A DNA stretch of 51,835 nucleotides from Desulfovirgula sp. (GTDB lineage Bacteria; Bacillota; Desulfotomaculia; Desulfotomaculales; Desulfocucumaceae), in assembly GCA_020725625.1 (NCBI GenBank), contig DYET01000168.1:1-51835 (forward strand), in the 5' to 3' direction. Of this stretch, positions 5,028 to 51,727 are shown piece after piece. Within the stretch, counting starts at the first letter, position 1. Each line of letters opens with the position of its first letter. The notes beneath the pieces were generated by a model, which was not told the origin of the DNA, did not search any database, and was given only the letters and a program-made list of their open reading frames with translations. A program made the position numbers and the translations under genes.

Positions 5028-6263
5028 TCAGTTTCCCTCCCGCCGCAGGTATCCCGGGTAGGCCGCCCCCATCCGCCGGACCATGCGGGCGGCGGCCTCG
5101 GTCATGGTGATTTCCTCGCCGTAATACTCCACCCCGGCGGCGGTGAATATTTCCCTGGCCGCGGAGTCGTTGACGCCGGCCTCGCGCACCACCACCGGGA
5201 AGGTGGACGGGTCGATGCCCAGATCGTTAAGGGCCCTGACAATACCCCGGGCCAGGACGTCAACCTGAGTGTTGTTGGTGATGTTGTGGGCCGCAAAGAG
5301 CCCCTTGACCCCGGGCTTGGTCAGGATGCCCCTGGTCAGTCCGTATACCTTCTCCTCCGTGGGGTTGCCGCCCACCTCGCTGTAGTTGGCCGGCCTGCCC
5401 CCGTTGGCGACCAGGGCGTCAAACAGGAGCAGGCTGCCCCCGCCACCCCCGCACATGAAGCCGATGTCACCCCCGGGCATCTCGGTGTACCGGGCGGTGC
5501 CACGGTAAGGGTCGGCCTCGTTGACCTCCACCATGCGCTTTTCCAAATCGGTGAGGGGTCTCCAGGCCCGCTCGCTGCCCAGCTGGACCATTTCCGAAAG
5601 TTCAGGGTGCCGGTACATGGCGCTGTCGTCCACGCTCATCACCGAGGCCGCCACGGCCAGTTCCCCGGAAGACGTTACGGCCAGCGGGTTGACCTCCAGC
5701 AGGGAGGCGTCGGTCCGTTCGAAGAGGTGGTAAAGCTTTACCAGCAGTGCCGTGGCCGCTAATATCAGCTTGCCTCCCACCCCCAGGTCCGACCAGATCT
5801 CCTTGGCCTGGAAATCGGCCATCCCCAGCAGGGGGTCGATGTGCCTTACGGCTACGCTGCCAGGGTGAGCACGGGTTATTTCCTCCACGTCCACGCCCCC
5901 CCTGGTGCTGGCTATCACCACCGGCATCTTTTTTTCCTTGTCGTAGGTAAAGGACAGGTACCACTCCTCCCTGATGTCCAGCCTTTCTTCCACCAGAACC
6001 TTCTCCACCGGAAAATTGCCCACGGTCATCCCCAGGAGTTCGCCCGCCGCGGCCCCGGCTTCGCCCGGGCCGCCGGCGAACTTGACGGCCCCGGCCTTCC
6101 CCCGCTTGCCCACAGGAACCAGCGCCTTGACCACCACCGGGCTTCCCAGCCCGGCGGCAATCCGCTCAGCCTCCTTCGGCGCGGCCGCCACGCCTCCATT
6201 GGGTACCTTCAGTCCCAGCTTCCTGATCAATTCCTTGCTGTGGTGCTCCAGCAACTTGCCCAA
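5028..6263 (-). CDS. SucC-like acyl-CoA synthetase beta subunit, divergent
   Basis: A 411-residue ATP-grasp protein related to succinyl-CoA synthetase beta, longer than the usual 385-390. Family features: the N-terminal HSKELIRKLGLKVPNG helix, VVKALVPVGKRGKAGAV, RGGVDVEEI, and LLEVNPLAVTSSGELAVAASVMSVDD for nucleotide and metal binding. The C-terminal ligase domain is unusual: a glycine run GFMCGGGGGSL replaces GCMVNGAGLA, and AAHNITNNTQVD replaces the conserved VNIFGGIMRCD loop. It lies 33 bp after the CitE-like gene. Together with the SucD-like partner it should form a CoA ester from a carboxylate, ATP (or GTP) and CoA; malate-CoA ligase is a known relative with this gene arrangement. Exact substrate unknown. 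Confidence 0.83.
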   Translation of the reverse strand: MGKLLEHHSKELIRKLGLKVPNGGVAAAPKEAERIAAGLGSPVVVKALVPVGKRGKAGAVKFAGGPGEAGAAAGELLGMTVGNFPVEKVLVEERLDIREEWYLSFTYDKEKKMPVVIASTRGGVDVEEITRAHPGSVAVRHIDPLLGMADFQAKEIWSDLGVGGKLILAATALLVKLYHLFERTDASLLEVNPLAVTSSGELAVAASVMSVDDSAMYRHPELSEMVQLGSERAWRPLTDLEKRMVEVNEADPYRGTARYTEMPGGDIGFMCGGGGGSLLLFDALVANGGRPANYSEVGGNPTEEKVYGLTRGILTKPGVKGLFAAHNITNNTQVDVLARGIVRALNDLGIDPSTFPVVVREAGVNDSAAREIFTAAGVEYYGEEITMTEAAARMVRRMGAAYPGYLRREGN

Positions 6264-7448: not shown

Positions 7449-7477
7449 TTGACAGTGGAGTTGGACTGGGATAACCT
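7449..7477 (+). promoter_or_regulatory. Putative sigma-A promoter of the AGPS-like operon
   Basis: A perfect TTGACA (7449-7454), a 17-bp spacer, and TAACCT (7472-7477) as a weak -10. It faces the plus-strand operon starting at 7566. The 7,240-7,565 interval holds this, the dyads above and no gene. Confidence 0.5.
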
Positions 7478-7565
7478 GAAACTGGATTTAAAACGATTTT
7501 TCAAAAGCCGGCATTTTGCAGCAGGCTGTCGGCGATGCGGCAATGCCAACCGGGGGTGAACAGGA

Positions 7566-9152
7566 TTGCGGCGCTGGAACGGCTGGGGAGAAGAAAAAAA
7601 GGAATATCCTCTGAATGAGAACATGAAGCGCTTTCTGTCCGGTCACGTGGGCCCGGGCAGGCAGCCCCGGGACGCTTCCCTGGAGGAAGTGCTGGCCGCC
7701 GTGCCTCCTGGAAGGCTGCCCGCTCACCGGCTGGTCAGCACCGACCCGTTGGAACGGCTGAGGCATGCCCGGGGGCAGAGCCTGCCGGACTGGATCGCCC
7801 TGAGGTCCGGCAGGGTCGGCCGCTTCCCGGACGGGGTGGCTTATCCGAAAACGGGCGAAGAGGTAAGGGAACTGATCGAATTCGCGGCCCAAAGCGGTTC
7901 CGTGATCATCCCGTACGGCGGCGGAACAAGCGTGGTGGGCCACGTCAACGTGGCCAGCGACCTGCCCGCGCTGACGGTGGACATGAGCAAAATGAACCGG
8001 CTGCTGGACCTGGACCGGGAAAGCAACCTGGCTGCGTTCCAGGCCGGGGTGCGCGGGCCGGAACTGGAAGCCCTGATCCGGGCCGAGGGGTACACGCTCG
8101 GCCATTACCCACAGTCCTTCGAGTATTCCACCCTGGGCGGCTGGGTGGCCAGCCGGTCCAGCGGGCAGCAGTCGCTCGGGTACGGCCGCATCGAACAGCT
8201 TTTTGCCGGGGGGCGGCTGGAAACGCCCCGGGGCAGGCTGGATCTGCCGGTTTTTCCAGCCAGCGCCGCGGGTCCTGACCTCCGCCAGCTGGTTCTGGGA
8301 TCTGAGGGCAGGTTCGGCATTCTGACCGAGGTTACCGTGCGGGTCCGGCGGATTCCGGAAGCCGAGGAGTTTTCCGCCGTTTTTTTTCCTGATTTCACCT
8401 CGGGAATCGGCGCCGTCCGGGACCTCGTCCGCCGGCGCCTTCCCCTGGTCATGCTGAGGCTCAGCACGGCCGCGGAGACCCGCACCACCCTGGCCATGTC
8501 CGGGAAGCCCCGGGCGGTGGCCTGGCTGGAAAAATACCTCGGCCTCAGGGGAGCCAGGGGGGAAAAATGCCTGCTTATTTTCGGTGCGGCGGGGATGAGG
8601 GACGAGGTAGGATTTGCCAAAAAGCGGCTGGGACAGTTCGTTTCCAGGTACGGCGGGGTGCTGGTGGGTCCGGTCCTGGGCCGGGAGTGGCATAAAACCC
8701 GCTTTAAAACCCCTTATTTGAGAAACAGCCTGTGGGAGGCCGGATACGCCGTGGACACGTTGGAAACCGCAGTCCCCTGGTCCAAAGTGGCGGGCCTGGA
8801 GGGGGATCTCTCCGGCAATCTCAGCCTTGGCCTCCTGCCGGAAGGGGAAAAGGTGCACGCCTTCAGCCACCTGTCGCACGTCTACAACGACGGCTGCAGC
8901 ATTTACACCACCTTTGTTTTCAGGCTGGCGGACGACCCGGAGGAAACCCTGGAACGCTGGCAACGGCTGAAAGGAATTGCCTGCCGGACTATCGCGGCGC
9001 ACGGGGGAACCATCAGCCACCAGCACGGGGTGGGTACCGACCACAAGCAATACCTGCCGGCGGAGAAGGGGCCCCTGGGAATGGAACTGCTGCGCCGGGC
9101 CGGCGGGGTTTTGGACCCGGGCGGGACGATGAACCCGGGCAAGCTTTACTAG
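7566..9152 (+). CDS. FAD-binding oxidase, alkyl-DHAP synthase-like
   Basis: A 528-residue vanillyl-alcohol-oxidase-fold flavoprotein closest in motifs to alkylglycerone-phosphate synthase, which swaps the acyl group of acyl-DHAP for a fatty alcohol in ether-lipid synthesis. Seen: PYGGGTSVVGHV (FAD pyrophosphate loop), GHYPQSFEYSTLGGWVASRSSGQQS, the C-terminal SHLSHVYNDGCSIYTTF, and HGGTISHQHGVG, the His-rich motif typical of AGPS. The next genes encode glycerol-3-phosphate dehydrogenase and an FGGY kinase, so DHAP/glycerol phosphate is the common theme. Start: TTG 7566 has GGGGGTGA just upstream; ATG 7623 is an alternative. A related 2-hydroxyacid oxidase (GlcD type) is less likely given the C-terminal motifs. 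Confidence 0.8.
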   Translation: MRRWNGWGEEKKEYPLNENMKRFLSGHVGPGRQPRDASLEEVLAAVPPGRLPAHRLVSTDPLERLRHARGQSLPDWIALRSGRVGRFPDGVAYPKTGEEVRELIEFAAQSGSVIIPYGGGTSVVGHVNVASDLPALTVDMSKMNRLLDLDRESNLAAFQAGVRGPELEALIRAEGYTLGHYPQSFEYSTLGGWVASRSSGQQSLGYGRIEQLFAGGRLETPRGRLDLPVFPASAAGPDLRQLVLGSEGRFGILTEVTVRVRRIPEAEEFSAVFFPDFTSGIGAVRDLVRRRLPLVMLRLSTAAETRTTLAMSGKPRAVAWLEKYLGLRGARGEKCLLIFGAAGMRDEVGFAKKRLGQFVSRYGGVLVGPVLGREWHKTRFKTPYLRNSLWEAGYAVDTLETAVPWSKVAGLEGDLSGNLSLGLLPEGEKVHAFSHLSHVYNDGCSIYTTFVFRLADDPEETLERWQRLKGIACRTIAAHGGTISHQHGVGTDHKQYLPAEKGPLGMELLRRAGGVLDPGGTMNPGKLY

Positions 9153-33043: not shown

Positions 33044-33102
33044 CTGGTGCGGCAGAAGGGACTTGAACCCCCACGGGCGTTACGCCCATAAGAACCTGAA
33101 TC
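33044..33102 (-). repeat. Left att core (59-bp copy of the tRNA-Leu 3' part)
   Basis: Identical over 59 bp to 51639-51697. It contains the tRNA 3' end including encoded CCA, T arm, variable arm and the 3' side of the anticodon arm, but not the 5' half, so it is not a functional tRNA gene. It marks the left boundary of the integrated element. Confidence 0.93.
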
Positions 33103-33111
33103 CGGCGTCAG

Positions 33112-33130
33112 TCATGCTATCATGTTATAC
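33112..33130 (+). repeat. Left copy of the ATGCTA-CATG motif
   Basis: Reads TCATGCTATCATGTTATAC and matches 50078-50096 in the promoter of the ribbon-helix-helix gene at most positions. Possibly a binding site for that protein next to attL. Confidence 0.4.
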
Positions 33131-33216
33131 GCTGTACCATGTAGTTAGAAATATCAAGGCTTCCGGGGTTTTCATCGTGATACCCTGTTATACGAAATTC
33201 AAGGTAATTATATTCA

Positions 33217-33238
33217 GGTTGCAACATCGGTTACAACA
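33217..33238 (+). promoter_or_regulatory. Paired GTTGCAAC-like sites, candidate left arm-type sites
   Basis: GGTTGCAACA and GGTTACAACA lie 12 bp apart, about 115 bp inside the att core. The same motif is paired 11 bp apart next to attR (51559-51580) and near 49695. Confidence 0.5.
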
Positions 33239-33283
33239 CCGGCCCCGCCTTGGTATTCCCTTAATATGATCCTGGCACCCAAT

Positions 33284-33605
33284 AAAAAATATATTAACCC
33301 CTTCCCCCAGAGAATAAGCTAAAATACCTCCGAAACCTCCGGTATATCCGAAGCCAGAAAATACGCGGCTTCCAGCCCCGGAGATATTTTTGTGGTATCT
33401 CCGGGATATCTCCGCAATATCTCCGGAGCGGCCGGGGAAGTAATCAAAAAAAATACACATTCCCCGCCCCCGGAGAATAACCGAAAAAACCTCCGGTATC
33501 TCCGGTATCTCCGAAGCCTTACGGGGCAAGGCTTTCAACCCCGGAGATATTAAAGGCCCCGGAGATAATATCTCCGAAGGCCCAAAGTATCTCCGGGGTA
33601 TATTT
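33284..33605 (+). repeat. Left TATCTCC/GGAGATA array
   Basis: Two tandem copies of a roughly 150-bp unit. Each begins with a C-rich block plus AGAATAA (33298-33326 and 33462-33487). Each continues with TATCTCCGG-type sites and GAAGCC...GGCTT inverted repeats, and ends in CCCCGGAGATAT. About ten exact TATCTCC/GGAGATA heptamers occur here. The array is noncoding and lies between the att core and the first minus-strand gene. A related array in opposite orientation is at 49470-49895. Confidence 0.85.
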
Positions 33606-33614
33606 AGGATAAAT

Positions 33615-34556
33615 TTAAGACCGCTTTTCCTTCAACTTTTTCTTAGGGTTGTTCTTCCGGGATTTTTTAGCATATGCCCTATTAGCGCAGGCCGGTTTAT
33701 CTTCAAGTAAATCGGTGCCCCGTATTGGAAGCCTGGGACAGCAAACCTGATTTTCTCTTGAAGGTTCAAACAAAGCACCACAGTATTTACACCGCTTTAA
33801 CACAGGTCCCCGAATTACCATGTCCCTAAATTGAACATAGGCTGCCGTAAGCAGTGATTCACATTTCATTCCGGGCAAGACCTTAAAACCTTTTTCATCC
33901 TGAACAATTTCCGCGCAGCCTATTGTTAACCGACCCTCCAGGCGCCTATTTATCTCCTTGCAAACATAAAATAATACCGCCTTCAATATTATATTCTCCG
34001 TGACCGGCGGCTTAATTGCCGGCCAGACATAAACACCCTGACCATCAATAAGAACGTCTGCCATAGGACCATCTGTTGTATCGCGCAGTACAACCTGAAC
34101 ACGATCCCTTAAACAATCTAAATTCCTTTTCTGGACCGCCTGGTATAAATTTAACAACTTTGCGGCCTGCCCCGCTTCCCGCTCAACAAACACCAAAGGA
34201 TCGCAATCCCTAAAATAAACCTCCAACTCCGGCCAATGGGTTGCAATTCCCAGCAACCCAAAATGTCGGGTAAAACCAATTACTTCACTTTCACTAAACT
34301 GTTCCCCGAGCCTTGCAAGGCTTGTAAACAAGAAGGCCCCTTCCTTTTTAAAAGGCTTCCAGTTGTATTCTTTCGCTCCACGGCTTGGCCGAATCACCTT
34401 GAGGGTATCCACGGGCGGGATAACCCCCTCCCAATGAACCCTGTCTTTTAAAGGGATGGGATTATGTATTTCGACCACCTCATATTTACTGCTGATAGGC
34501 CAGTTAAAATGATATTCCTGAAACTCCCACGGCTTGGTTTTGTTTTTTACAAACAT
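33615..34556 (-). CDS. Unknown protein with C-terminal zinc-finger-like motif
   Basis: 313 residues, not recognised overall. The C-terminus has KRCKYCGALFEPSRENQVCC and, after a short insert, ACANRAY, then a lysine-rich tail; this resembles a CGNR-type or treble-clef zinc finger with nucleic-acid-binding character. The N-terminal 220 residues show no motif I know. It is divergent from the HTH gene at 34644, sharing an AT-rich 87-bp promoter interval, so it may be early or regulatory. Its 3' end abuts the left repeat array. Confidence 0.7.
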   Translation of the reverse strand: MFVKNKTKPWEFQEYHFNWPISSKYEVVEIHNPIPLKDRVHWEGVIPPVDTLKVIRPSRGAKEYNWKPFKKEGAFLFTSLARLGEQFSESEVIGFTRHFGLLGIATHWPELEVYFRDCDPLVFVEREAGQAAKLLNLYQAVQKRNLDCLRDRVQVVLRDTTDGPMADVLIDGQGVYVWPAIKPPVTENIILKAVLFYVCKEINRRLEGRLTIGCAEIVQDEKGFKVLPGMKCESLLTAAYVQFRDMVIRGPVLKRCKYCGALFEPSRENQVCCPRLPIRGTDLLEDKPACANRAYAKKSRKNNPKKKLKEKRS

Positions 34557-34643: not shown

Positions 34644-34886
34644 ATGCTCAACTTAACTGTGGAGCGTGAAAAGCGCGGCTGGACAAAGAGCGAGCTAGCA
34701 CGGCGATCGGGAGTGCCGCTGGCGGAGATTTGTCGCATAGAAGGGGGCAAGATTTTTCCATATCCCGGGTGGCGCAGAAAAATAGCGCGGGCCATGGAAA
34801 TGCCAGAGAGTGAACTTTTCCAGGAGGTTGACGGCAATGAAAGCGTTAGAGAAAACGCAAGAAAATCCGGAACTTTTAACTGTTGA
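34644..34886 (+). CDS. XRE-family HTH regulator
   Basis: 80 residues; LTVEREKRGWTKSELARRSGVPLAEICRIEGGKI is a Cro/C1-type helix-turn-helix with the usual opening. GGAGG lies 10 bp before the ATG. Probably a repressor or control switch of the element, divergent to the gene at 33615. Its end overlaps the next gene by 50 bp in another frame. Confidence 0.8.
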   Translation: MLNLTVEREKRGWTKSELARRSGVPLAEICRIEGGKIFPYPGWRRKIARAMEMPESELFQEVDGNESVRENARKSGTFNC

Positions 34887-35100
34887 AGCGATGCAGAGGA
34901 TTCTAGATGTTTCAAGAGCAACGGCTTACTCATTAATCCACAGGCCCAATTTTCCGGTTTTATGGATTGGACGTTGCGCCCGAATACCCAGGCAAGCACT
35001 ATACAAATGGATTGAGCAACAAACAGGGGTTAAAAAAACAATTCAGGAGTTTAAAAATGAGCGATGTTTTCAAAACCACAAAACAGATACCAATTATTGA
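34837..35100 (+). CDS. Excisionase/MerR-type HTH DNA-binding protein
   Basis: 87 residues. TVEAMQRILDVSRATAYSLIHRPNFPVLWIGRCARIPRQALYKWIEQQ is a winged-helix HTH_17 (excisionase family) domain, seen here at about residues 12-60. Start ATG 34837 has AGGAGG nine bases upstream, although this overlaps the XRE gene. Such proteins act as Xis or as replication/regulatory factors. Confidence 0.75.
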   Translation: MKALEKTQENPELLTVEAMQRILDVSRATAYSLIHRPNFPVLWIGRCARIPRQALYKWIEQQTGVKKTIQEFKNERCFQNHKTDTNY

Positions 35101-35632
35101 CATTATAAGTCACTACTTGCCAGACGTTCGGTTACGATGTGCCGGGCAGACTTGTTCAGGCCGCTGCCCGTTCCATGATGATAAAAATCCATCATTTACA
35201 GTTTGGCCGGAATCAGGGCGTTGGAAATGCTGGAGCTGTAACATCGGTGGTGACAATATTGCTTTGGTTGCGAAAGCGTTAAACCTTAAACCTCTGGAGG
35301 CGGCCCGGACTATCGCCCGGGATTTCAACCTCCCGGCGCCGGGTGCCCACCGCCCGATGTCCCCGGAGGTTCAGCGAAGGTCCCAGGAGGTGGCGAGGGA
35401 AAGAGCGTTAAAAGCAGCTTTTGAATCAAAAGTCCGGGAATTGTATCTGACATTGGCCATGATTTACCGCTGCATTAACATGGTTTTCAATGGCCCGGAC
35501 CCGCCGCCGGCGGTGGCATACTGGGTCCATCGACTTCCAGAGATTGAATTTTTGCTTGACGAATTAATTATTAGGGATGAGGTCCGCCAGGTGGAGGCGG
35601 TCAGGGCGGCACGCAATTGGGGGTTGTGTTGA
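35057..35632 (+). CDS. CHC2 zinc-finger primase fragment
   Basis: 191 residues. Residues 28-66 have the DnaG-type CHC2 zinc motif: C33/C37 region with CPFH (C37, H40), DDKNPSF, then KCWSC (C58, C61) and GGD. The TOPRIM catalytic domain of DnaG is absent; the C-terminal part is helical. Start ATG 35057 has AGGAG 7 bp upstream. The stop overlaps the next ATG (TGATG), coupling it to the helicase-like gene; together they look like a replication module. Confidence 0.85.
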   Translation: MSDVFKTTKQIPIIDIISHYLPDVRLRCAGQTCSGRCPFHDDKNPSFTVWPESGRWKCWSCNIGGDNIALVAKALNLKPLEAARTIARDFNLPAPGAHRPMSPEVQRRSQEVARERALKAAFESKVRELYLTLAMIYRCINMVFNGPDPPPAVAYWVHRLPEIEFLLDELIIRDEVRQVEAVRAARNWGLC

Positions 35633-37494
35633 TGAGTTTGTCGGAAATTTTAACACAAGATGAACAGAATGAATACATGGGTCAATATTTAGATACTGAA
35701 GAAGAAAATAGTATGCAAGATGATGATGAACTTTTCCGTGCAATCTTGTTGTTAGCCGGTGATACTGTAAATGGCAAGGACGGACGCGGTTTTTCAAAGC
35801 ACGATAAAGAACTTGGACTGAAACTTGCAGAAACAATCCGTGACGGAGAAGAATTTTCAATTAATCTTAAACTACTTGCTTATAAGCTAGCCAAAAAATA
35901 CGAAAAACAATTATTCATAAACCATAATTTCGACTTCGGAAAAATATCTAAACCTGAACACGAATCAAAAGATAAAACAATAGAACAGCAGGAGGACAAG
36001 CGAACACAAGCTGAAATTTTAATAGATATTGCTAATAGTGCGGAACTATTTCATGACGAATTAAAAGATGCACACGCAGCGGTTGATGTTAACGGTCACC
36101 GTGAAATATACCCGGTAAGAAGCAAGCATTTTAAATTGTGGCTTACTGGGCAATTTTACAAACAAACAGAAAGGGCACCTTCCAATGAGGCACTATCTCA
36201 ATCACTGAATGCCATTGAAGCTAAAGGAGTGTTCGATGGTAAGGAAAGAAAGTTAAACTTGCGTGTTGCTGAATACAAGGGTGCATTTGCATATGATCTT
36301 GCGGATAAGCTTTGGCGTGTTGTAAAAATTATACCCAGGGAGTGGAAAATAGTAGATAAACCCCCGATTATATTTAGACGTTACAAAAACACGGCGGCAC
36401 AAGTTGAACCCGTCAGAGGCGGCGACTTACAAAAACTTCTCGACTTTGTAAATATAAAAGACCCGGGGGAGAAATTGCTCTTTCTTGTTGTTACTGCTTC
36501 ATATCTAATACCCGATATACCTCATCCCGTCTCAGTTTATGCAGGCGAGAAAGGGGCTGCGAAATCAACAATAATGCGCATGCAAAGACGCATTGTAGAT
36601 CCTGCTAACCGCGAGTTAATGATTTTACCTGCAGATAAGAACGAACTGGCTTTAACTCTGACGACGAACTACATGCCATGTTTTGACAATTTGGATAATC
36701 TCCAAAGCTGGCAGTCTGACATGTTATGCCAGGCGGCAACTGGCGGAGGGACAAGTAAAAGGGAATTATATAGCGACATAGATGAAGTTATTCTTTCGTT
36801 CTTGCGCTGTCCCGCATTAAACGGTATCAATGTGGTTGTGACTCGACCAGATTTACTAGACCGTAGCGTTATTTTTACATTAGACAGGATAAATCCTAAA
36901 CAGCGACAAGAAGAATCTGTTTTATGGAAAAAATTTGAGGAAGCCAGGCCCGCGATAATGGGGGGATTATTTGATACTTTAGCAAAAGCTATGAGCATCT
37001 ATCCCGAAATTCAGCTATCATCGCTGCCCCGCATGGCCGATTTTTGCAGGTGGGGGTATGCGATAGCCGAGGCCCTTGGCGCAGGTGGACAGATGTTTCT
37101 TAATGCTTATTTTGAAAACATAGGACGAGCAAATGACGAAGCGATATCAAACAACCCCATTGCTGCAGCCATAGTTGCACTAATGAATGAAAAAGCAAAG
37201 TGGGAGGGTACTCCTGCTGGACTACTTGAAGCACTGGAAAAAGTTGCTGAGATAGAAAAAATAAATACCAAGGCTAAAAGCTGGCCGCAAGCAGCTAATA
37301 CATTATCAAGGCGATTAAAGCACGTTAAAAGCAACTTACTTGATGCAGGCATTACATATACTATCGAGCGTGATAAGTCCAACCGAACTCAAATAGTCAT
37401 TATACAAGACGGAATATCTGTCAGTAGTGAAAATGATCAGATAGTAACAGGGGGCGGTGATGATATTGATTATCTCCCAGATCTCCCTTATTGA
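35632..37494 (+). CDS. P-loop ATPase, helicase-like replication protein
   Basis: 620 residues. Walker A is GEKGAAKST (305-313), followed by ALTLTTNYMPCFDNLDNL (Walker B-like segment) and VVVTRPDLLDRSVIFTLDRI with a candidate arginine finger. This is the arrangement in phage and plasmid ATPases next to CHC2 primases, probably superfamily-3-like. The N-terminal 150 residues are acidic and unrecognised. The gene is clearly AT-richer than its neighbours, suggesting separate ancestry. ATG 35632 overlaps the previous stop; the frame upstream begins only with TTG 35617. Confidence 0.75.
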   Translation: MSLSEILTQDEQNEYMGQYLDTEEENSMQDDDELFRAILLLAGDTVNGKDGRGFSKHDKELGLKLAETIRDGEEFSINLKLLAYKLAKKYEKQLFINHNFDFGKISKPEHESKDKTIEQQEDKRTQAEILIDIANSAELFHDELKDAHAAVDVNGHREIYPVRSKHFKLWLTGQFYKQTERAPSNEALSQSLNAIEAKGVFDGKERKLNLRVAEYKGAFAYDLADKLWRVVKIIPREWKIVDKPPIIFRRYKNTAAQVEPVRGGDLQKLLDFVNIKDPGEKLLFLVVTASYLIPDIPHPVSVYAGEKGAAKSTIMRMQRRIVDPANRELMILPADKNELALTLTTNYMPCFDNLDNLQSWQSDMLCQAATGGGTSKRELYSDIDEVILSFLRCPALNGINVVVTRPDLLDRSVIFTLDRINPKQRQEESVLWKKFEEARPAIMGGLFDTLAKAMSIYPEIQLSSLPRMADFCRWGYAIAEALGAGGQMFLNAYFENIGRANDEAISNNPIAAAIVALMNEKAKWEGTPAGLLEALEKVAEIEKINTKAKSWPQAANTLSRRLKHVKSNLLDAGITYTIERDKSNRTQIVIIQDGISVSSENDQIVTGGGDDIDYLPDLPY

Positions 37495-37858
37495 ACTAAT
37501 CAGACAACTATCCGCCCACGGCATCACCGTTAACCTGTCCGGCAACACTCTCCGGGTGGTCCGCCCTCCGGACTACCCAACGTGGGAGGATGTGCCCAGG
37601 GAGGCCCGCCCCCTGCTGGCCGAGCTAAAACGGCGCAAGGCTGAAGTGCTGGCCTTTCTTCAAGGAAACCATGCAAAGGAGACAGATCAACCGTCCACAA
37701 TTGAGGTAGCACAGAGAACCGTTATCCGAATCCACCCCATGCGCCAGGCTTGCCGGCTGGCCGGCCATTGCTTGAGAATGACAAGCGAGTGGGATTGCCG
37801 GCTGTTTGCGGTAAGTTTGGAACGGGGTTGGTGCCGGGAGCGAGTCAAAATCACCTGA
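37460..37858 (+). CDS. TubC N-terminal docking-domain-like protein
   Basis: 132 residues. Residues 8-70 (LIELIRQLSAHGITVNLSGN, then LRVVRPP and PLLAELKRRKAEVLAFL) match the TubC docking domain, which in polyketide/peptide synthetases joins subunits but also occurs in mobile-element proteins. The C-terminal 50 residues contain spaced cysteines (C..AGHC, DC, GWC) that could bind metal. No synthetase is nearby. The start ATG 37460 (or GTG 37457) overlaps the end of the ATPase gene; GGGGGC precedes it. Confidence 0.65.
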   Translation: MILIISQISLIELIRQLSAHGITVNLSGNTLRVVRPPDYPTWEDVPREARPLLAELKRRKAEVLAFLQGNHAKETDQPSTIEVAQRTVIRIHPMRQACRLAGHCLRMTSEWDCRLFAVSLERGWCRERVKIT

Positions 37859-40312: not shown

Positions 40313-40350
40313 GCTCCGTGAAGTAATGTGGTAAAGGGGTGACAATTAAT

Positions 40351-43300
40351 ATGCCTGGAGACGACAGCTTCATAAAGATCATCAGTAAAATCGGGATCGA
40401 TTTTTCCCAGGCCGTCCAGGGAACAAAGACCTTGGCGGAAGAACTGAACAAGCTGAACCGCCCCCTGGACGAGCTTGCCGCCCACGCAAAGCAGACGGCG
40501 GCCCAGGTTGCGGCGGCGTTTAATCAGACCGCCCAGGCCGGGGCAACGAGCATTACAAAACAAAACAGGCAGATATTACAGCAGAACACGGTATTCGCCA
40601 GGGATTACTTTACCTCCATCGAGAACCGGGCCAGACAACACCGGGCCTTTATGGACCGGCTGTTCTCCCCGCAAATGACCGCGCATCACCTTAACTGGTT
40701 GATCGCGGGCGTAGGCATCTATGGCACGTTTGAGGTATTGAAAGAAGGTCTTGTTGACGTGGAGAAGGGCATGAGGGGCCTTATGACGGTCCTGCCCGAG
40801 ATAGCCCACGACCAGGAGGTATATAATCAGGCCACCAAAGAGGCCATTGACCTGATGCAGAAGTACGGCGCCAGCGTGGATGAAGCGATGTCCGCCGGCC
40901 GGTCCTTCGGCAGAATGTATAAAGAGGTTGAAACCGTCATGGGCCTGGTAAACAACTCCATCCTCCTGAACGTCATTGATAACGTGAAGCTGGAGCAGGC
41001 CGTAAGGGGGAACGAGGCGGCCCTGGCCGTCTACGGCAAGGAGTTGAAATCTACCAACGAGGTTCTTGCCTTCAGCAGTAAATTCATGGACAGCCTCACC
41101 CGGCTGTCTCACGAGAGCATGGCCAGCGCCACCGACCTGATTGAAATTATCGAAAGGTCGGCGGCCGCCGCCAAGAACGCCAAGACAGATATTGACCAGC
41201 TTATGGGGGTAGGTGCTGCGGCGGTCCGGGCCACCGGCCTGCCGGGGGCGAACATCGGCAACATGCTTAAAACCGTATTCGCTCAACTGTCTGCCCCCAC
41301 CAGGAAGGTCCGGGAGGAAATCGAGCAGATAGGTGTTAAGCTTTATGACGCCAACGGGCAACTGAGATCCGCTTACGACATTATCCTTGACCTGGCCCGG
41401 GCGACCAAGGACGCCACCATCAGCCAAGACGAATTAAACGAGGCTATCCTCAAAGCCGCCTCCGGCAAATTCCAGTATTCCAAGCTGTCCTCCGTCCTTG
41501 GACAGTTTGATGAAATCGTTAAAAACACTTCCCGGAGCATTCACGCCCAGGGTATCACAATGCAGATGGCCGCCCAGCAGCTTGACACCATCGAACGCCA
41601 CGCCAAGATGTTGAAGGCCACCCTTCTTGATACTTTCTCCGGGGCCGGGGACGCTGGCCTGCGGACGGCCATTAAGGGTCTACTTGATACCCTGAATCAA
41701 CTCATTATGGGCTTCAACAATATTTCATCCACGGCCATAAACGCCTCTCTCGCCCTGGGAGCTGTCATTCTTGCCGGTAAGATGATATTCGGCATATACT
41801 CCAGGGTTCTCCCCGTCATAGGGTCCGTGACCGGCATCACCGCCCAGATCGCGGCGGCCTCCAACATGGCGGCCGCCGGGCAGATGTCCCTTGCCACGGC
41901 CACCAACGTCACCAATGCCGCCATGGGCAGACTGGCCGCCACAACAGCCCTGGCCACCGGGGGACTTACCCTTCTTCTGGGAGGACTTGCCTACCTTGTT
42001 TACAAGTCCGGTGAAGCCGAGAAAAAGCAGCTTGAGCTTAACCAGGCCGTCCAGGAGAACATACAACTGTCACAGCAGAAAATGATGCAGTACAACACGG
42101 AGGGAACCTTCCTGGAGCAGATGCGGGAACGCCACCAGCAGTTAACCGATCAGATAAACAGCGGGAAGCTGTCGGTCCAGGAACTGGCCGCCGCCCAAAA
42201 GGACCGGGCAGCCGTGGAAGAAGCCGTCTTGCTCCTGGTGGATGAGGACATTAAGAAAAAGATTGAGGCAAACGGTGTTACGCAGGAGGAAATCAATCTT
42301 GTTATAGAGTCCGTGAAGCAGAAAAAGCAGGCTGAACTGGAAAAAAACAAAGCCGAAATCAACGAAACGAACCAGAAGATCAGGGCCACCAACGAGCGGA
42401 TAGAGGCCATTAAGCGGGAACTGGAAGCCGAGAAAACGCTGTTGATGACCAAAAGTCCGGTGAGGCTTGGCATTGAGGCCGCCATACAGTTTAAGTATCC
42501 CGACCTGGCGAGGCTGCTGGGACTGGGCAAGGCTATGGGGTTGGGAGAGGAACTCAGGCGGCTTGAGAAGGATTATGCGGACGCGCAGAAGAGGTTAAGC
42601 GACCTTCAGATGTCCTTCATTCAGGGAATTGGGGACATAAGCCGGCTGGGCGGGGGCGGAATTGGCGATGAGGATAAATATAAACTCTCCGACTTTACCG
42701 ACCCCCTCCGCGAAGCCGCCAACAAAGCCAAGTTGACATTGGATGATTTTAACAACACTCTCCAATACACGGATACATTGATTCAGGGCGTCACCACCCG
42801 GGAGCGCATTTTCGACCTCCAGATGCGGGGCGAAACGGTTCCCACGCTGGAGCAGGCCAGGGGGAAATACGCACTGCTTAATGAGGTTATGGCCTTAAGC
42901 GCACGAAAGCAGGCGCAGTTGCACGGGGCCGCCAATGCCGCCCGGGAGCAACTTGCCGAGCTGAACGCCGAGATGGATGAACTGGTCCGGCGGCATGAAG
43001 CCGGTACGCTGTCAACGAAAGAGTTTAATGCCGCGGTGTCGGCCTTGCGGCCAACCATCCAGGCCCTGGAGAGGGATATTGCCCAGTATGGAAATGCGTG
43101 GTGGGAGGCCGAACTGAACTCTTACCAGGCCATGCGGACCATGAAAGATTTCTATATGGGTGCTCTTCAGAAGGAAAGAGATCTGGTCAAGGAAGCCTAT
43201 AGCGAGCGCATGCAACAAGTTGAGGACGAAATTGCCGCCGAGGAAGAAGCCGCAAAGGTTAAAATTGAATCCAAAGAAAAGCGGATCAAGGCCATAGACG

Positions 43301-44538
43301 ATGAAGTAAATGCCCAGATCAAGGCTATCCAGGCCCTTATCGACGCCCTGGACGTCCAGGATACGCAGTCAGACCGGGAGGAGGCCGAGCGGCAGCATAA
43401 CCAGAAGCTGGCCGACTTGCAAAAGCAGAAGCAGTACCATGAGTTGAGAACTGGCCTGGAACATGTCAAGGCTATTGATGAGATAAATCGGCAGATAGCG
43501 GAAGAAGAACACAACTGGCAGGTTAAGAAGCAGGACTGGGCTAGGGATGACCAAAGAAAGACTTACCAGAATCAGATTGACTCCATCAGAGACCAGGCCA
43601 GGGCCAGGCAGGACGCCATTCGCCAGGAAATAGACGATATTAAGAAGGCTTCCGACACTAAGAAAAGGGAACTACAAAGGTACTACGACGATGTGCAAAA
43701 ATTACTGAGTGACAAGAACCTTGAATTGATAGCTGGATTGGCGGCCGCTGACGACCAGTGGTATCAGCGGGGCCTTACCTGGATGCAGAGGTTGGCCCAG
43801 GGCATCCGGGACGGCGCAACGGTATTGCCCAGTGGGGCGCGGGACATTATCAGAGAGGCCGAAGAAGCAACCAAAGGCGGCGGTTCCACTAGCGGAGGCG
43901 GAACGTCCCGGGGGGCCGGGTCCACCGTGGCCACCATCGGCCCGGGACAGTACATTAACGAAAACGGCCGCACCTACATGTGGTCACGGCAACTGGCCTC
44001 CCTTCTTGGCAAGCCCGTCGAATGGAACGAAGCGGCTCAAATGGTCAAAATAGGAAGTAAATGGTTTACTCCCTGGAGAATTATTGACGATAAGGCGTAT
44101 GTCGGTATCCGGGACGTGGCGGAGGCGCTCGGGTATAAGGTCCGGTGGGAGGATCCCAACGTGATAATTTCTCAGGCCCACACCGGGGCTTATGTGGCCC
44201 GAAGCGGCATTGCCGAACTACTCAAGGGCGAGCGGGTGCTTTCACCGCAGCTTACGGTCAGCTTTGACAGGCTGTCGAACGTGCTGGCGAATTTCCCGAA
44301 TATCCCGGATAAGATTGCCCTTGCCGGGAGGATGCTGACCGCCGGGGAGATGGAACGGATAGCCAAAGGAATGACTGACCGGCTTATAGCCACCCTGGAA
44401 CGGCGGACGGGCATGCAGATTGACAAATTGTTAAACGTGGAGAACATGGATGTTGGGGACGGTGTGGATGCCGAAATCCTCAGCCGAGAACTGGTCAGGG
44501 CGGCTAACCTGTTGCGGACTGCCCGGGGCGGGGGATAA
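40351..44538 (+). CDS. Phage tail tape measure protein with copper-amine-oxidase N-terminal-like domain
   Basis: 1,395 residues from ATG 40351 (GTG 40339 also possible). The TP901-type core (ATDLIEIIERSAAAAKNAKTD, QLMGVGAAAVRATGLPG, NMLKTVFAQLS) is in the first 400 residues. Hydrophobic helices at about 455-560 and long charged coiled coils follow (around 590-700 and 960-1130). Near the C-terminus, after a GGGSTSGGG linker, a repeat-like segment (INENGRTYMWSRQLASLLG ... DDKAYVGIRDVAEALG) resembles copper amine oxidase N-terminal (stalk) domains, normally on cell-surface proteins. Tape measure proteins set tail length and enter the host envelope. Confidence 0.88.
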   Translation: MPGDDSFIKIISKIGIDFSQAVQGTKTLAEELNKLNRPLDELAAHAKQTAAQVAAAFNQTAQAGATSITKQNRQILQQNTVFARDYFTSIENRARQHRAFMDRLFSPQMTAHHLNWLIAGVGIYGTFEVLKEGLVDVEKGMRGLMTVLPEIAHDQEVYNQATKEAIDLMQKYGASVDEAMSAGRSFGRMYKEVETVMGLVNNSILLNVIDNVKLEQAVRGNEAALAVYGKELKSTNEVLAFSSKFMDSLTRLSHESMASATDLIEIIERSAAAAKNAKTDIDQLMGVGAAAVRATGLPGANIGNMLKTVFAQLSAPTRKVREEIEQIGVKLYDANGQLRSAYDIILDLARATKDATISQDELNEAILKAASGKFQYSKLSSVLGQFDEIVKNTSRSIHAQGITMQMAAQQLDTIERHAKMLKATLLDTFSGAGDAGLRTAIKGLLDTLNQLIMGFNNISSTAINASLALGAVILAGKMIFGIYSRVLPVIGSVTGITAQIAAASNMAAAGQMSLATATNVTNAAMGRLAATTALATGGLTLLLGGLAYLVYKSGEAEKKQLELNQAVQENIQLSQQKMMQYNTEGTFLEQMRERHQQLTDQINSGKLSVQELAAAQKDRAAVEEAVLLLVDEDIKKKIEANGVTQEEINLVIESVKQKKQAELEKNKAEINETNQKIRATNERIEAIKRELEAEKTLLMTKSPVRLGIEAAIQFKYPDLARLLGLGKAMGLGEELRRLEKDYADAQKRLSDLQMSFIQGIGDISRLGGGGIGDEDKYKLSDFTDPLREAANKAKLTLDDFNNTLQYTDTLIQGVTTRERIFDLQMRGETVPTLEQARGKYALLNEVMALSARKQAQLHGAANAAREQLAELNAEMDELVRRHEAGTLSTKEFNAAVSALRPTIQALERDIAQYGNAWWEAELNSYQAMRTMKDFYMGALQKERDLVKEAYSERMQQVEDEIAAEEEAAKVKIESKEKRIKAIDDEVNAQIKAIQALIDALDVQDTQSDREEAERQHNQKLADLQKQKQYHELRTGLEHVKAIDEINRQIAEEEHNWQVKKQDWARDDQRKTYQNQIDSIRDQARARQDAIRQEIDDIKKASDTKKRELQRYYDDVQKLLSDKNLELIAGLAAADDQWYQRGLTWMQRLAQGIRDGATVLPSGARDIIREAEEATKGGGSTSGGGTSRGAGSTVATIGPGQYINENGRTYMWSRQLASLLGKPVEWNEAAQMVKIGSKWFTPWRIIDDKAYVGIRDVAEALGYKVRWEDPNVIISQAHTGAYVARSGIAELLKGERVLSPQLTVSFDRLSNVLANFPNIPDKIALAGRMLTAGEMERIAKGMTDRLIATLERRTGMQIDKLLNVENMDVGDGVDAEILSRELVRAANLLRTARGGG

Positions 44539-49469: not shown

Positions 49470-49895
49470 TTCTTTAAGCTTCCGGAGATAATATCTCCGG
49501 GACTGGAAATATCTCCGGGGCTGGAAACCGTGACTTTGTTGGCTTTCGGAGATACCGGAGACACTGGAGATATTTTCGGAGACTATCTGGAAGATGCAAT
49601 ATTATTTTTTTGTATTGCTTCCACATGGTCCCTGCGTAAAATAAACTATCTTATGGTGTTACTGAAACCCTTGATATTCAAGGGTTTTTGTGTTGATGTT
49701 GCAATGATGTTGCAACCAGGCTTAACGGGAGATCGGATGCTCCCCGGAGATATTTTTGGAGATACCGGAGATATTATCTCCGGGGGTGAAAATATCTCCG
49801 GCCCCGGAAGCCTTGTCCCTGTTGGCTTTGGAGATACCGGAGATATTGGAGATATTTTAGCTTATTCTCTGGGGAAAGGGGTTAATATATTTTTT
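49470..49895 (-). repeat. Right TATCTCC/GGAGATA array
   Basis: Two units (about 49478-49595 and 49740-49895) in opposite orientation to the left array, each with several GGAGATACC/GGAGATATT repeats and a GGCTT(T/C) element. Between the units lies a terminator-like hairpin (49665-49689) and paired GTTGCAA sites. The last 43 bp (49853-49895) are the inverted copy of 33284-33326 with one mismatch. Open frames through it (Gly-Asp-Thr repeats) are products of the repeat, not genes. Confidence 0.85.
49665..49689 (+). terminator. Hairpin with T-run inside the right array
   Basis: AAACCCTTGA/TCAAGGGTTT with a TAT loop, followed by TT. Located between the two repeat units. Confidence 0.6.
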
Positions 49896-50070
49896 TTGTG
49901 TTTTTGGCCGGCAATATGGCATTTTATGTTAAAGTTGTCATAGTCTGCCAGGTTTATAGAAGGATTATAATGACATATCTACCATAATATACCACCTGCC
50001 CTTTGTATATTTTTTATACTTAGTTAGTGCGCAGACGAACAGGTTTTCCCGCCGCCATACAAATTATATA

Positions 50071-50099: not shown

Positions 50100-50119
50100 T
50101 ATAGGAGGAGGTGATTGCG

Positions 50120-50308
50120 TTGACACTGGAAACCAAAATGGCAATTCGGGTCCCGGAAGAATGGCACCGCCAGGTCAAGGCTGAAGCTGCCTTGCGGGGG
50201 ACCACGGTAAGTAAGCTTATAAGGACTGCGGTTGATGAATGGCTGAAACAAAATCCGAGGGAGGCGGTTAAAGATGGCAAAGAAAACGAAAAAGCGGGCA
50301 AACGGTGA
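50120..50308 (+). CDS. Ribbon-helix-helix protein, candidate excisionase/autoregulator
   Basis: 62 residues. KMAIRVPEEWHRQVKAEA, RGTTVSKLIRTAVDEWL is an Arc/CopG-type fold: a short beta strand then two helices. Start TTG 50120 after AGGAGGAGGTGA; GTG 50111 lies inside the binding site. It overlaps the integrase gene by 35 bp. It probably controls its promoter and integration/excision. Confidence 0.75.
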   Translation: MTLETKMAIRVPEEWHRQVKAEAALRGTTVSKLIRTAVDEWLKQNPREAVKDGKENEKAGKR

Positions 50309-51473
50309 AGGTTCTATTTATCAGCGGTCCAACGGTACATGGGTTGCGCAAATAACCATCGGGCGCGATTCTGAGGGCAGGCCCAAAAGAACAAGTTTTT
50401 CAGGTAAAACCCGCAAGGAAGTACAGGAAAAGGTAAACAAGGCCCTTTCGGAACTACAAACCGGGACCTTTATTGAACCCACAAAAACAACCTTGGCCCA
50501 GTGGCTAGACACCTGGATGGAGGAATACAAAAAACCCAGCTTGCGCCCCACTACATACGAAGGTTACAACTTCATAATCAAGACCCACATAACACCGGCA
50601 ACAATCGGCAATATCCAGTTAAGGCACATACAGCCGAGTGATTTACAGCGGTTCTATAACGCCAAATTGGAGAGCGGTCGGGCGGACGGCAAGGGCGGGC
50701 TTTCCCCTAGGATGATCCGGTACATTCACGCAATCCTGCACGGCGCCCTGAAGCAAGCCGTCAGAGAGGGCCTGGTTATTCGCAATGTCACTGAGGCGGT
50801 AACGCTCCCCCGACACCAAAGGAAAGAGTTTACACCACTCACCCAGGAGCAGGTTATTAAATTCCTTAACTCAATTAAAAACGACAAGTTTTACCCGGCT
50901 ATCCTGCTTGACCTGGGAAGCGGGTTGAGACTTGGTGAACTGCTGGCCCTCCGGTGGCAGGACGTGGACCTAAAAAACGCAGTAATCAGGGTCAGGCAAT
51001 CGCTGGCATCAGTAAAAGGGCAATGGCTGTTCCAGGAGCCCAAAAGCGAGAAGTCCCGGCGCTCCATACCTATACCGAAAGATATAATCACCGAGTTAAA
51101 AGCGCACAAGGCCCGGCAGAACCAGGAGAAACTATTAGCCGGCACCGCCTACCAGGACCACGATCTTGTATTTGCAATGCCTGATGGCAACCCCTTAAAG
51201 GTAAGGTCGTTTCAGGAACACTTTGAAAAACTTCTTTCCAATGCCGGGATGCCCCGGGTGCGCTTCCATGACCTGCGCCACACCTACGCAACACTACTGC
51301 TGGAAGCGGGCGAACATCCCAAGGTTGTTCAGGAGCTTTTGGGGCACAGCCAGATAACAATGACACTGGACACTTACAGCCACGTCCTGCCGGAGTTGAA
51401 GCAGGCGGCGGCAGCAAAACTGGGTAATATCCTCCAGAAAAGAAAAAGCCCCTCTCAGGTTGGAGGGAAATAA
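50274..51473 (+). CDS. Tyrosine recombinase, phage integrase
   Basis: 399 residues: N-terminal AP2-like arm-binding segment (GEGSIYQRSNGTWVAQI), SAM-like core-binding domain (TLAQWLDTWMEEYKKPSLRP), and catalytic domain with R220 (GLRLGELLALRW), H332-x2-R335 (HDLRHTYATLLLEAG), the histidine of LLGHSQIT and Y368 in DTYSHVL. All key residues are present, so it should be active. It lies 165 bp from the att core, next to the intact tRNA, as is usual. Confidence 0.96.
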   Translation: MAKKTKKRANGEGSIYQRSNGTWVAQITIGRDSEGRPKRTSFSGKTRKEVQEKVNKALSELQTGTFIEPTKTTLAQWLDTWMEEYKKPSLRPTTYEGYNFIIKTHITPATIGNIQLRHIQPSDLQRFYNAKLESGRADGKGGLSPRMIRYIHAILHGALKQAVREGLVIRNVTEAVTLPRHQRKEFTPLTQEQVIKFLNSIKNDKFYPAILLDLGSGLRLGELLALRWQDVDLKNAVIRVRQSLASVKGQWLFQEPKSEKSRRSIPIPKDIITELKAHKARQNQEKLLAGTAYQDHDLVFAMPDGNPLKVRSFQEHFEKLLSNAGMPRVRFHDLRHTYATLLLEAGEHPKVVQELLGHSQITMTLDTYSHVLPELKQAAAAKLGNILQKRKSPSQVGGK

Positions 51474-51638: not shown

Positions 51639-51697
51639 CTGGTGCGGCAGAAGGGACTTGAACCCCCACGGGCGTTACGCCCATAAGAACCTGAATC
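51639..51697 (-). repeat. Right att core within tRNA-Leu
   Basis: 59 bp identical to 33044-33102, covering the 3' part of the tRNA-Leu gene up to the anticodon arm. Integration therefore keeps the tRNA intact on this side. Confidence 0.93.
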
Positions 51698-51727
51698 TTA
51701 CGCGTCTGCCAATTCCGCCACTGCCGC
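51640..51727 (-). tRNA. tRNA-Leu (anticodon CAG)
   Basis: 88 nt including encoded CCA (51640-51642). The acceptor GCGGCAG pairs with CTGCCGC, the anticodon loop is TTCAGGT with CAG and stem TAAGA/TCTTA, and the long variable arm GGGCG-TAA-CGCCC is typical of tRNA-Leu. The T loop TTCAAGT is present. It is the integration target of the element, which has separated the gene from the terminator-like hairpin now at 33002-33042. Confidence 0.95.

Follow-up and report, generated by a model that had tools for sequence, protein, structure and literature searches.

The 51,835-nucleotide contig of Desulfovirgula sp. analyzed here, referred to over its full length as the window, contains an integrated element of 18.6 kb, in which two clusters of TATCTCC/GGAGATA sites are arranged as mirror images, one towards each end. 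Each cluster is probably a replication origin built of iterons (or an origin paired with a cis-replication region), belonging to an integrative replicon of the satellite kind, similar to SaPIs and PICIs and to the ori/crr system of P4, relocated and mirror-duplicated around attP. In this reading, the known part is the iteron origin of a satellite Rep helicase; the new part is its relocation, mirroring and duplication.

Two mirror-image iteron clusters in an integrated element

The window contains 30 TATCTCC sites, against 3.8 ± 1.8 expected: none of 100 shuffles reaches this number. Most sites, counted as TATCTCC/GGAGATA, fall in two clusters, which cover about 0.7 kb together: 10 are found at 33380-33594 and 13 at 49484-49854. 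The left cluster extends over 33297-33600, the right one over 49478-49895, and two tandem units are present in each (Table 1). When compared with its own genome, the interval 49470-49895 matches, on the other strand, both 33284-33390 (84% identity, E 8e-27) and 33468-33598 (77%, E 1e-22). A previous sequence-only reading had described more than 20 heptamers, distributed over four homologous units, two per cluster, with left and right pairs in opposite orientation, each unit combining a C-rich block and AGAATAA with GAAGCC/GGCTT dyads: the 23 clustered sites, the two opposite-strand alignments and the unit alignment bear out all these features. The same reading had named, as an observation that would speak against it, units scattered through the chromosome as intergenic repeats. 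Beyond the left cluster and short palindromic self-matches, the interval has no match in the 3.15-Mb host genome, and a scan of this genome for the spaced double-site pattern gives matches confined to the two clusters.

When the units are aligned, the consensus starts with GGAGATAnTATCTCC, followed by TATCTCCGG, a GAAGCC...GGCTT stem and three GGAGATA copies at 9-bp steps; it continues with TTTT, then TTATTCTCnGGGG, corresponding to the AGAATAA/C-rich block, and a T-rich tail. Individual units deviate from this order in places. Unit direction is given here towards the T-rich tail, "+" corresponding to minus in the sequence-only reading. AT-rich stretches lie between or beyond the units of each cluster: the gap between R1 and R2 has a GC content of 0.39, and the tail of L1 is common to the tail of R2 and to G001, a Peptococcaceae MAG of the same genus. 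The convergent arms of the units can fold into hairpins, with z scores from -2.8 to -6.5. An Rfam search reported a tRNA as its sole match. Searched directly against phage and plasmid collections, the right cluster gave no match; contigs retrieved from IMG/VR with exact patterns (TATCTCC pairs, palindrome) had neither comparable clusters nor the helicase, and a scan of IMG/VR with the conserved tail pattern gave no match.

The element is bounded by exact direct repeats at a tRNA-Leu (attL and attR in Table 1). Its clusters had been described as flanking it: they do lie towards both ends, but stop short of them. About 195 bp separate the left one from attL; between the right one and attR there are about 1.7 kb, which hold the RHH and integrase genes, starting about 0.2 kb downstream of the cluster. 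In the excised circle, the two clusters would point towards each other, separated by a segment of about 2 kb with int and attP. Four copies of a palindrome, GTTGCAAC, occur at 33218, 49709, 51561 and 51572 of the window; they are restricted to the surroundings of both att sites, plus one copy between R1 and R2, and are candidate integrase arm-type sites.

Table 1. Features of the integrated element, in window coordinates
Feature	Position	Strand	Evidence or remarks
attL, 59-bp copy of tRNA-Leu 3' part	33044..33102		exact direct repeat with 51639-51697
AT-rich tail beyond L1, candidate melting region	33265..33296		AATATATTTTTTATTG on minus strand; GC 0.33 vs 0.50 for the element
Unit L1, left iteron cluster	33297..33427	-	84% identical to R2; geometry test 5/27 mismatches
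Unit L2, left iteron cluster	33466..33600	-	77% identical to R2; geometry 3/27; 98% identical to G001
HTH regulator (HTH_31)	34644..34886	+	Pfam E 1.5e-7
HTH_17 excisionase/AlpA-like protein	34810..35100	+	Pfam E 8e-10; PHROG excisionase and regulator
CHC2 zinc-ribbon primase fragment	34967..35632	+	Pfam Zn_ribbon_DnaG E 1e-18; true start probably inside this ORF
Initiator helicase (Rep-like), 625 aa, P-loop	35617..37494	+	AAA+/SF3-type core, C-terminal winged helix at about 512-597 (AlphaFold model)
TubC_N-like small protein	37457..37858	+	Pfam E 3e-5, just under curated cut-off
Unit R1, right iteron cluster	49478..49590	+	unit alignment; geometry 3/27 mismatches
Unit R2, right iteron cluster	49743..49895	+	matches to L1/L2, unit alignment; geometry 3/27 mismatches
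AT-rich tail beyond R2	49896..49990		GC 0.29 over 49885-49990
Ribbon-helix-helix (RHH, Arc/ParG-like) protein	50111..50308	+	Pfam ParG E 4e-5, RHH_1 1.5e-4
Tyrosine integrase (int)	50274..51473	+	Pfam Phage_integrase E 6e-30
attR	51639..51697		inside intact tRNA-Leu(cag) gene (51640-51727, minus)

The element also encodes, at 40339-44538, a 1399-aa phage tape-measure protein (PHROG E 1e-38). No capsid, portal or terminase was recognized among the element ORFs tested. The element may be either a decayed prophage or a satellite that carries a tail.

The initiator helicase and the arrays at its 3' end in relatives

The P-loop protein of the element has no match in Pfam, NCBIfam or PHROG, and a profile search of PDB sequences returned P-loop noise only. 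Its AlphaFold model, built from 15 sequences, has a mean pLDDT of 76, with values of about 90 for the bulk of residues 130-360 and of about 80 or higher for the winged helix. The top structural matches of the model are the SaPI5 primase-helicase structures 7ola (Z 19.6) and 7om0 (Z 19.1), with further matches to poxvirus D5/E5, ASFV primpol, PriRep1 (7pds, Z 13.3) and NrS-1: the predicted protein thus features the SaPI Rep/D5 fold along with a C-terminal winged helix. No relation to SaPI Rep was detected at the sequence level, the likeness being structural only. Helicases of the SaPI5-Rep/D5 kind bind origins via their C-terminal domain (PMC7581432) and, as cited in PMC4234260, a secondary source on this point, the winged helix of P4 alpha binds repeats. 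Of 113 genomes from the class, 14 have a homologue of the helicase, as do 19 of 398 sampled from the phylum, the own genome being counted in both; further homologues are on genome and viral contigs.

The search of the right cluster against 60 relatives led from the units to these helicases. Matches are limited to the left end of the element in G001, to Desulfallas sp. Bu1-1 (G057) and to a 28-bp stretch in G009. The Desulfallas matches (72-73%, E 9e-9 and 3e-9) are located in the last part of a primpol-helicase gene, where a homologue of the window P-loop protein is fused to a primpol domain, and the array is translated in frame (ENISGTSGISGTQAG...). This gene belongs to a compact 6.3-kb element (L014, 6508-12865), located between copies of tRNA-Arg(CCT), which contains little beyond an HTH_17 protein, the primpol-helicase with its terminal array, a TubC_N-like protein, whose gene adjoins the helicase as in the window, and an integrase. 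It is a candidate minimal model replicon.

Outside the genus, 42 distinct homologues were compared. In 24 of them the helicase gene ends in an array, a putative origin directly 3' of rep, made up of 4-13 copies of one 8-mer (at most 2-4 in shuffles); in the other 18, the repeated 8-mer test finds none. In the window and in G001 no array is in this position: the helicase terminates about 30 residues past the winged helix. The 3'-end array is usually the sole iteron cluster within about 10 kb of the helicase. The iteron word differs from element to element (TATCTCCGC, AGCTCCGG, AGCGTCCC, TAGCGTCAT, TATCGTCAT, GGACGATA and others); despite this, the layout >>(>) <<(<) >>(>) <<< is recurrent.

The layout was also evaluated by a motif-blind scan, in which any word was compared with its reverse complement placed d (30-37), d+9 and d+18 further on, mismatches being counted out of 27. 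All four window units score 3-5 mismatches, where the null has a minimum of 7 and a median of 12; most 3'-end arrays, including many with unrelated iterons, score 1-5. Window units and many of the relatives' arrays therefore feature a common geometry: > about 34-36 bp <, 9 bp <, 9 bp <. The arrays sharing this geometry include ones of quite different iteron sequence. The anatomy of the window units is that of a satellite iteron origin. The statement of the sequence-only reading, that the arrangement is not recognized from any described family, was in this respect too strong: its unusual part is the relocation and mirror duplication.

Pairing of helicase and iterons finds minor support in the correlation between iteron distance and winged-helix distance (Mantel r 0.20, p 0.01), which falls to r 0.15 (p 0.045) once the ATPase-domain distance is removed. 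In the window and in G001, whose helicase 3' ends lack an array, the link between helicase and clusters comes from homology.

Probable displacement and duplication of the units, and their conservation

We infer that the ancestral state was one two-unit array at the helicase 3' end, from which the clusters of this lineage would have been relocated. The complete two-ended layout is seen in one genome; the G001 contig ends inside the element, with its right end unassembled, and the best integrase match in G001 is only 30% identical. Between G001 and the window, the units of the left cluster are 92-98% identical, and the stretch from attL to the left cluster is 95% identical; the helicase gene, in contrast, is 77% identical, and 52% at third codon positions. 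The conservation of att plus left cluster (33044-33600) may reflect, as judged from the alignments, either strong constraint or a recent modular exchange. Beside the left cluster, the ORF at 33615-34556 is not alignable at the DNA level with its G001 counterpart, although the two proteins have a similar cysteine-rich motif at their C-termini.

Clusters away from the helicase 3' end are also found in five satellite-like viral contigs (L139, L141, L143, L144, L145), where they are made of GCGTCCCC iterons. The displaced cluster adjoins int wherever int could be placed, and directly follows it in L144. In L139, L141, L144 and L145, the helicase 3' end bears sites of the same iteron family, too. 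In L144 the iteron regions are located at 1314-1430 and 7473-7579, and the contig reads as integrase, portal, capsid and terminase, with no tail genes noticed. Satellites with a second cluster near int are a partial precedent for the window layout.

In one further helicase gene (L048, G097:C112, at about 6085-6209), a complete GAAGCTCC-type iteron unit is located in frame inside the gene, with FVNLK on one side and LLLAYV, the next conserved stretch, on the other, and the 813-aa frame stays open. The 3' end of this gene bears sites besides the internal unit. On account of the int-proximal clusters and of this in-frame unit, origin units seem able to arise at new places within one element.

Proposed mechanism, alternatives and significance

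In the proposed mechanism, the integrase would excise the element at the att sites, as suggested by the att repeats and the int gene. The C-terminal winged helix of the helicase, to judge from homology and fold, would bind the TATCTCCGG iterons on the convergent arms (>> spacer <<<), where facing hexamers may assemble; if SaPI Rep, P4 alpha and pRN1 are a guide, the helicase would open the AT-rich tail next to the iterons and be loaded to replicate the excised circle, with priming possibly by the CHC2 primase. In this lineage the array would be gone from the helicase 3' end, and two mirror-image copies at the ends would flank int and attP in the circle, both possibly active as origins.

SaPIs and PICIs are among the closest known systems. 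Their helicase carries a C-terminal DNA-binding domain, and two iteron sets lie beside an AT-rich stretch (PMC6092414, PMC7581432), as here; the primase beside rep and int at the element end are also shared. Further satellite traits of the window element are its specific att site, HTH regulators, Rep-like helicase and small size. The PICI origin is described as immediately 3' of rep (PMC6092414), and the array of most close relatives is right at the helicase 3' end, whereas in the window two full mirror-image clusters lie away from it, near both ends, and a tape-measure gene is present. The SCCmec helicase Cch2, of the D5/SaPI5-Rep type, has a C-terminal domain that likewise binds direct repeats located downstream of the gene encoding it, but these are three 5-nt iterons only, at one site (PMC7581432). 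In pRN1 and phage BIP-1 the origin lies 3' of the primpol-helicase gene, as do the arrays of the window relatives, but consists of one large stem-loop instead of iteron arrays; the pRN1 origin was shown experimentally to be still functional when displaced (PMC4234260).

In P4 a single primase-helicase binds iterons in two separate regions, ori and crr, the latter being composed of two repeats of about 120 bp. In common with P4, the window has two separate regions and a helicase with a predicted winged helix. To our knowledge, the P4 iteron sequence is unrelated to that of the window; in addition, the window primase resides on a separate CHC2 protein, and the two window regions are alike and inverted.

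The sequence-only reading had suggested protein-binding clusters, serving replication, end bridging or partition. The replication part is supported by the homologous arrays at the 3' end of homologous helicase genes in many related elements, a place known for SaPI/PICI origins. Partition would require the heptamers to be parS-like sites, forming a centromere bound by the ParG/omega-like RHH protein. Omega-type RHH partition proteins do bind heptad arrays, direct and inverted, and the RHH gene, with its Pfam ParG match, is located just to the right of the right cluster; yet the arrays track the helicase. The search for the RHH protein covered 14 genomes, of which 12 carry arrays and lie outside the genus: it is present only in the own genome and in G052, where it is on a contig other than that of helicase and array; it is absent from the remaining 11 of the 12, and no ParA-type ATPase was recognized among the element ORFs tested. 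RHH-bound partition was rejected on co-occurrence, and a centromere is highly improbable. Only slightly less so is a mobile or recombinogenic palindromic repeat, of the MITE/REP kind, spreading in the element with no replication role. The hairpin-forming ability of the units, and their presence at the helicase 3' end, near int, at the element ends and in frame within the G097 helicase gene, would fit such a repeat; set against it are the strong preference for the helicase 3' end, and element-specific iterons in constant geometry, as expected of coevolution with a cognate protein. As a dispersed chromosomal repeat it was rejected, the own genome holding just the four units, with no copies outside the element.

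Two further readings keep an origin in place. Hairpins of the convergent arms, as single strands or cruciforms, might themselves be recognized, the iterons being merely stem sequence, as proposed for pRN1/BIP-1: the window folds are stable, and the origin of pRN1, a stem-loop of 100 nt located 3' of its primpol-helicase, has to be intact (PMC4234260). This is unlikely, tandem same-arm copies at 9 bp, the 18/9 asymmetry of arm spacing and partnerless single iterons fitting repeated protein sites better; it concerns the mode of recognition, and origin function itself is unaffected. A real possibility, though short of probable, and one overlapping with the preferred explanation, is that a single cluster is the origin, while the other is regulatory or auxiliary, as in P4 ori plus crr, or as a Rep-bound operator for int or copy number. 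P4 requires its cis-replication region besides ori; the displaced clusters of the five viral contigs share their iteron with the helicase-3'-end sites where readable, and the right cluster lies just upstream of the RHH-int genes. Against this division of roles, both window clusters share the full two-unit architecture and similar AT-rich tails, so that neither is singled out.

Going further than the iteron-origin reading itself, it is conceivable, if rather doubtful, that whole origin units are units of exchange, copied to new sites in the element, and that the two mirrored clusters around attP both work as origins, coupling excision to replication or letting converging forks finish int/attP last.

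An unexplained repeat thus becomes a candidate origin open to testing, and leads to a wide family of initiator helicases, here from Firmicutes and IMG/VR contigs, whose window member is not matched by Pfam, NCBIfam or PHROGs. The mirror duplication raises the question why an integrated satellite places an origin towards each end. With the putative origins constant in geometry but divergent in iteron sequence, the family offers natural material for learning how a winged helix reads its iteron, and what keeps an element from firing the origins of its relatives.
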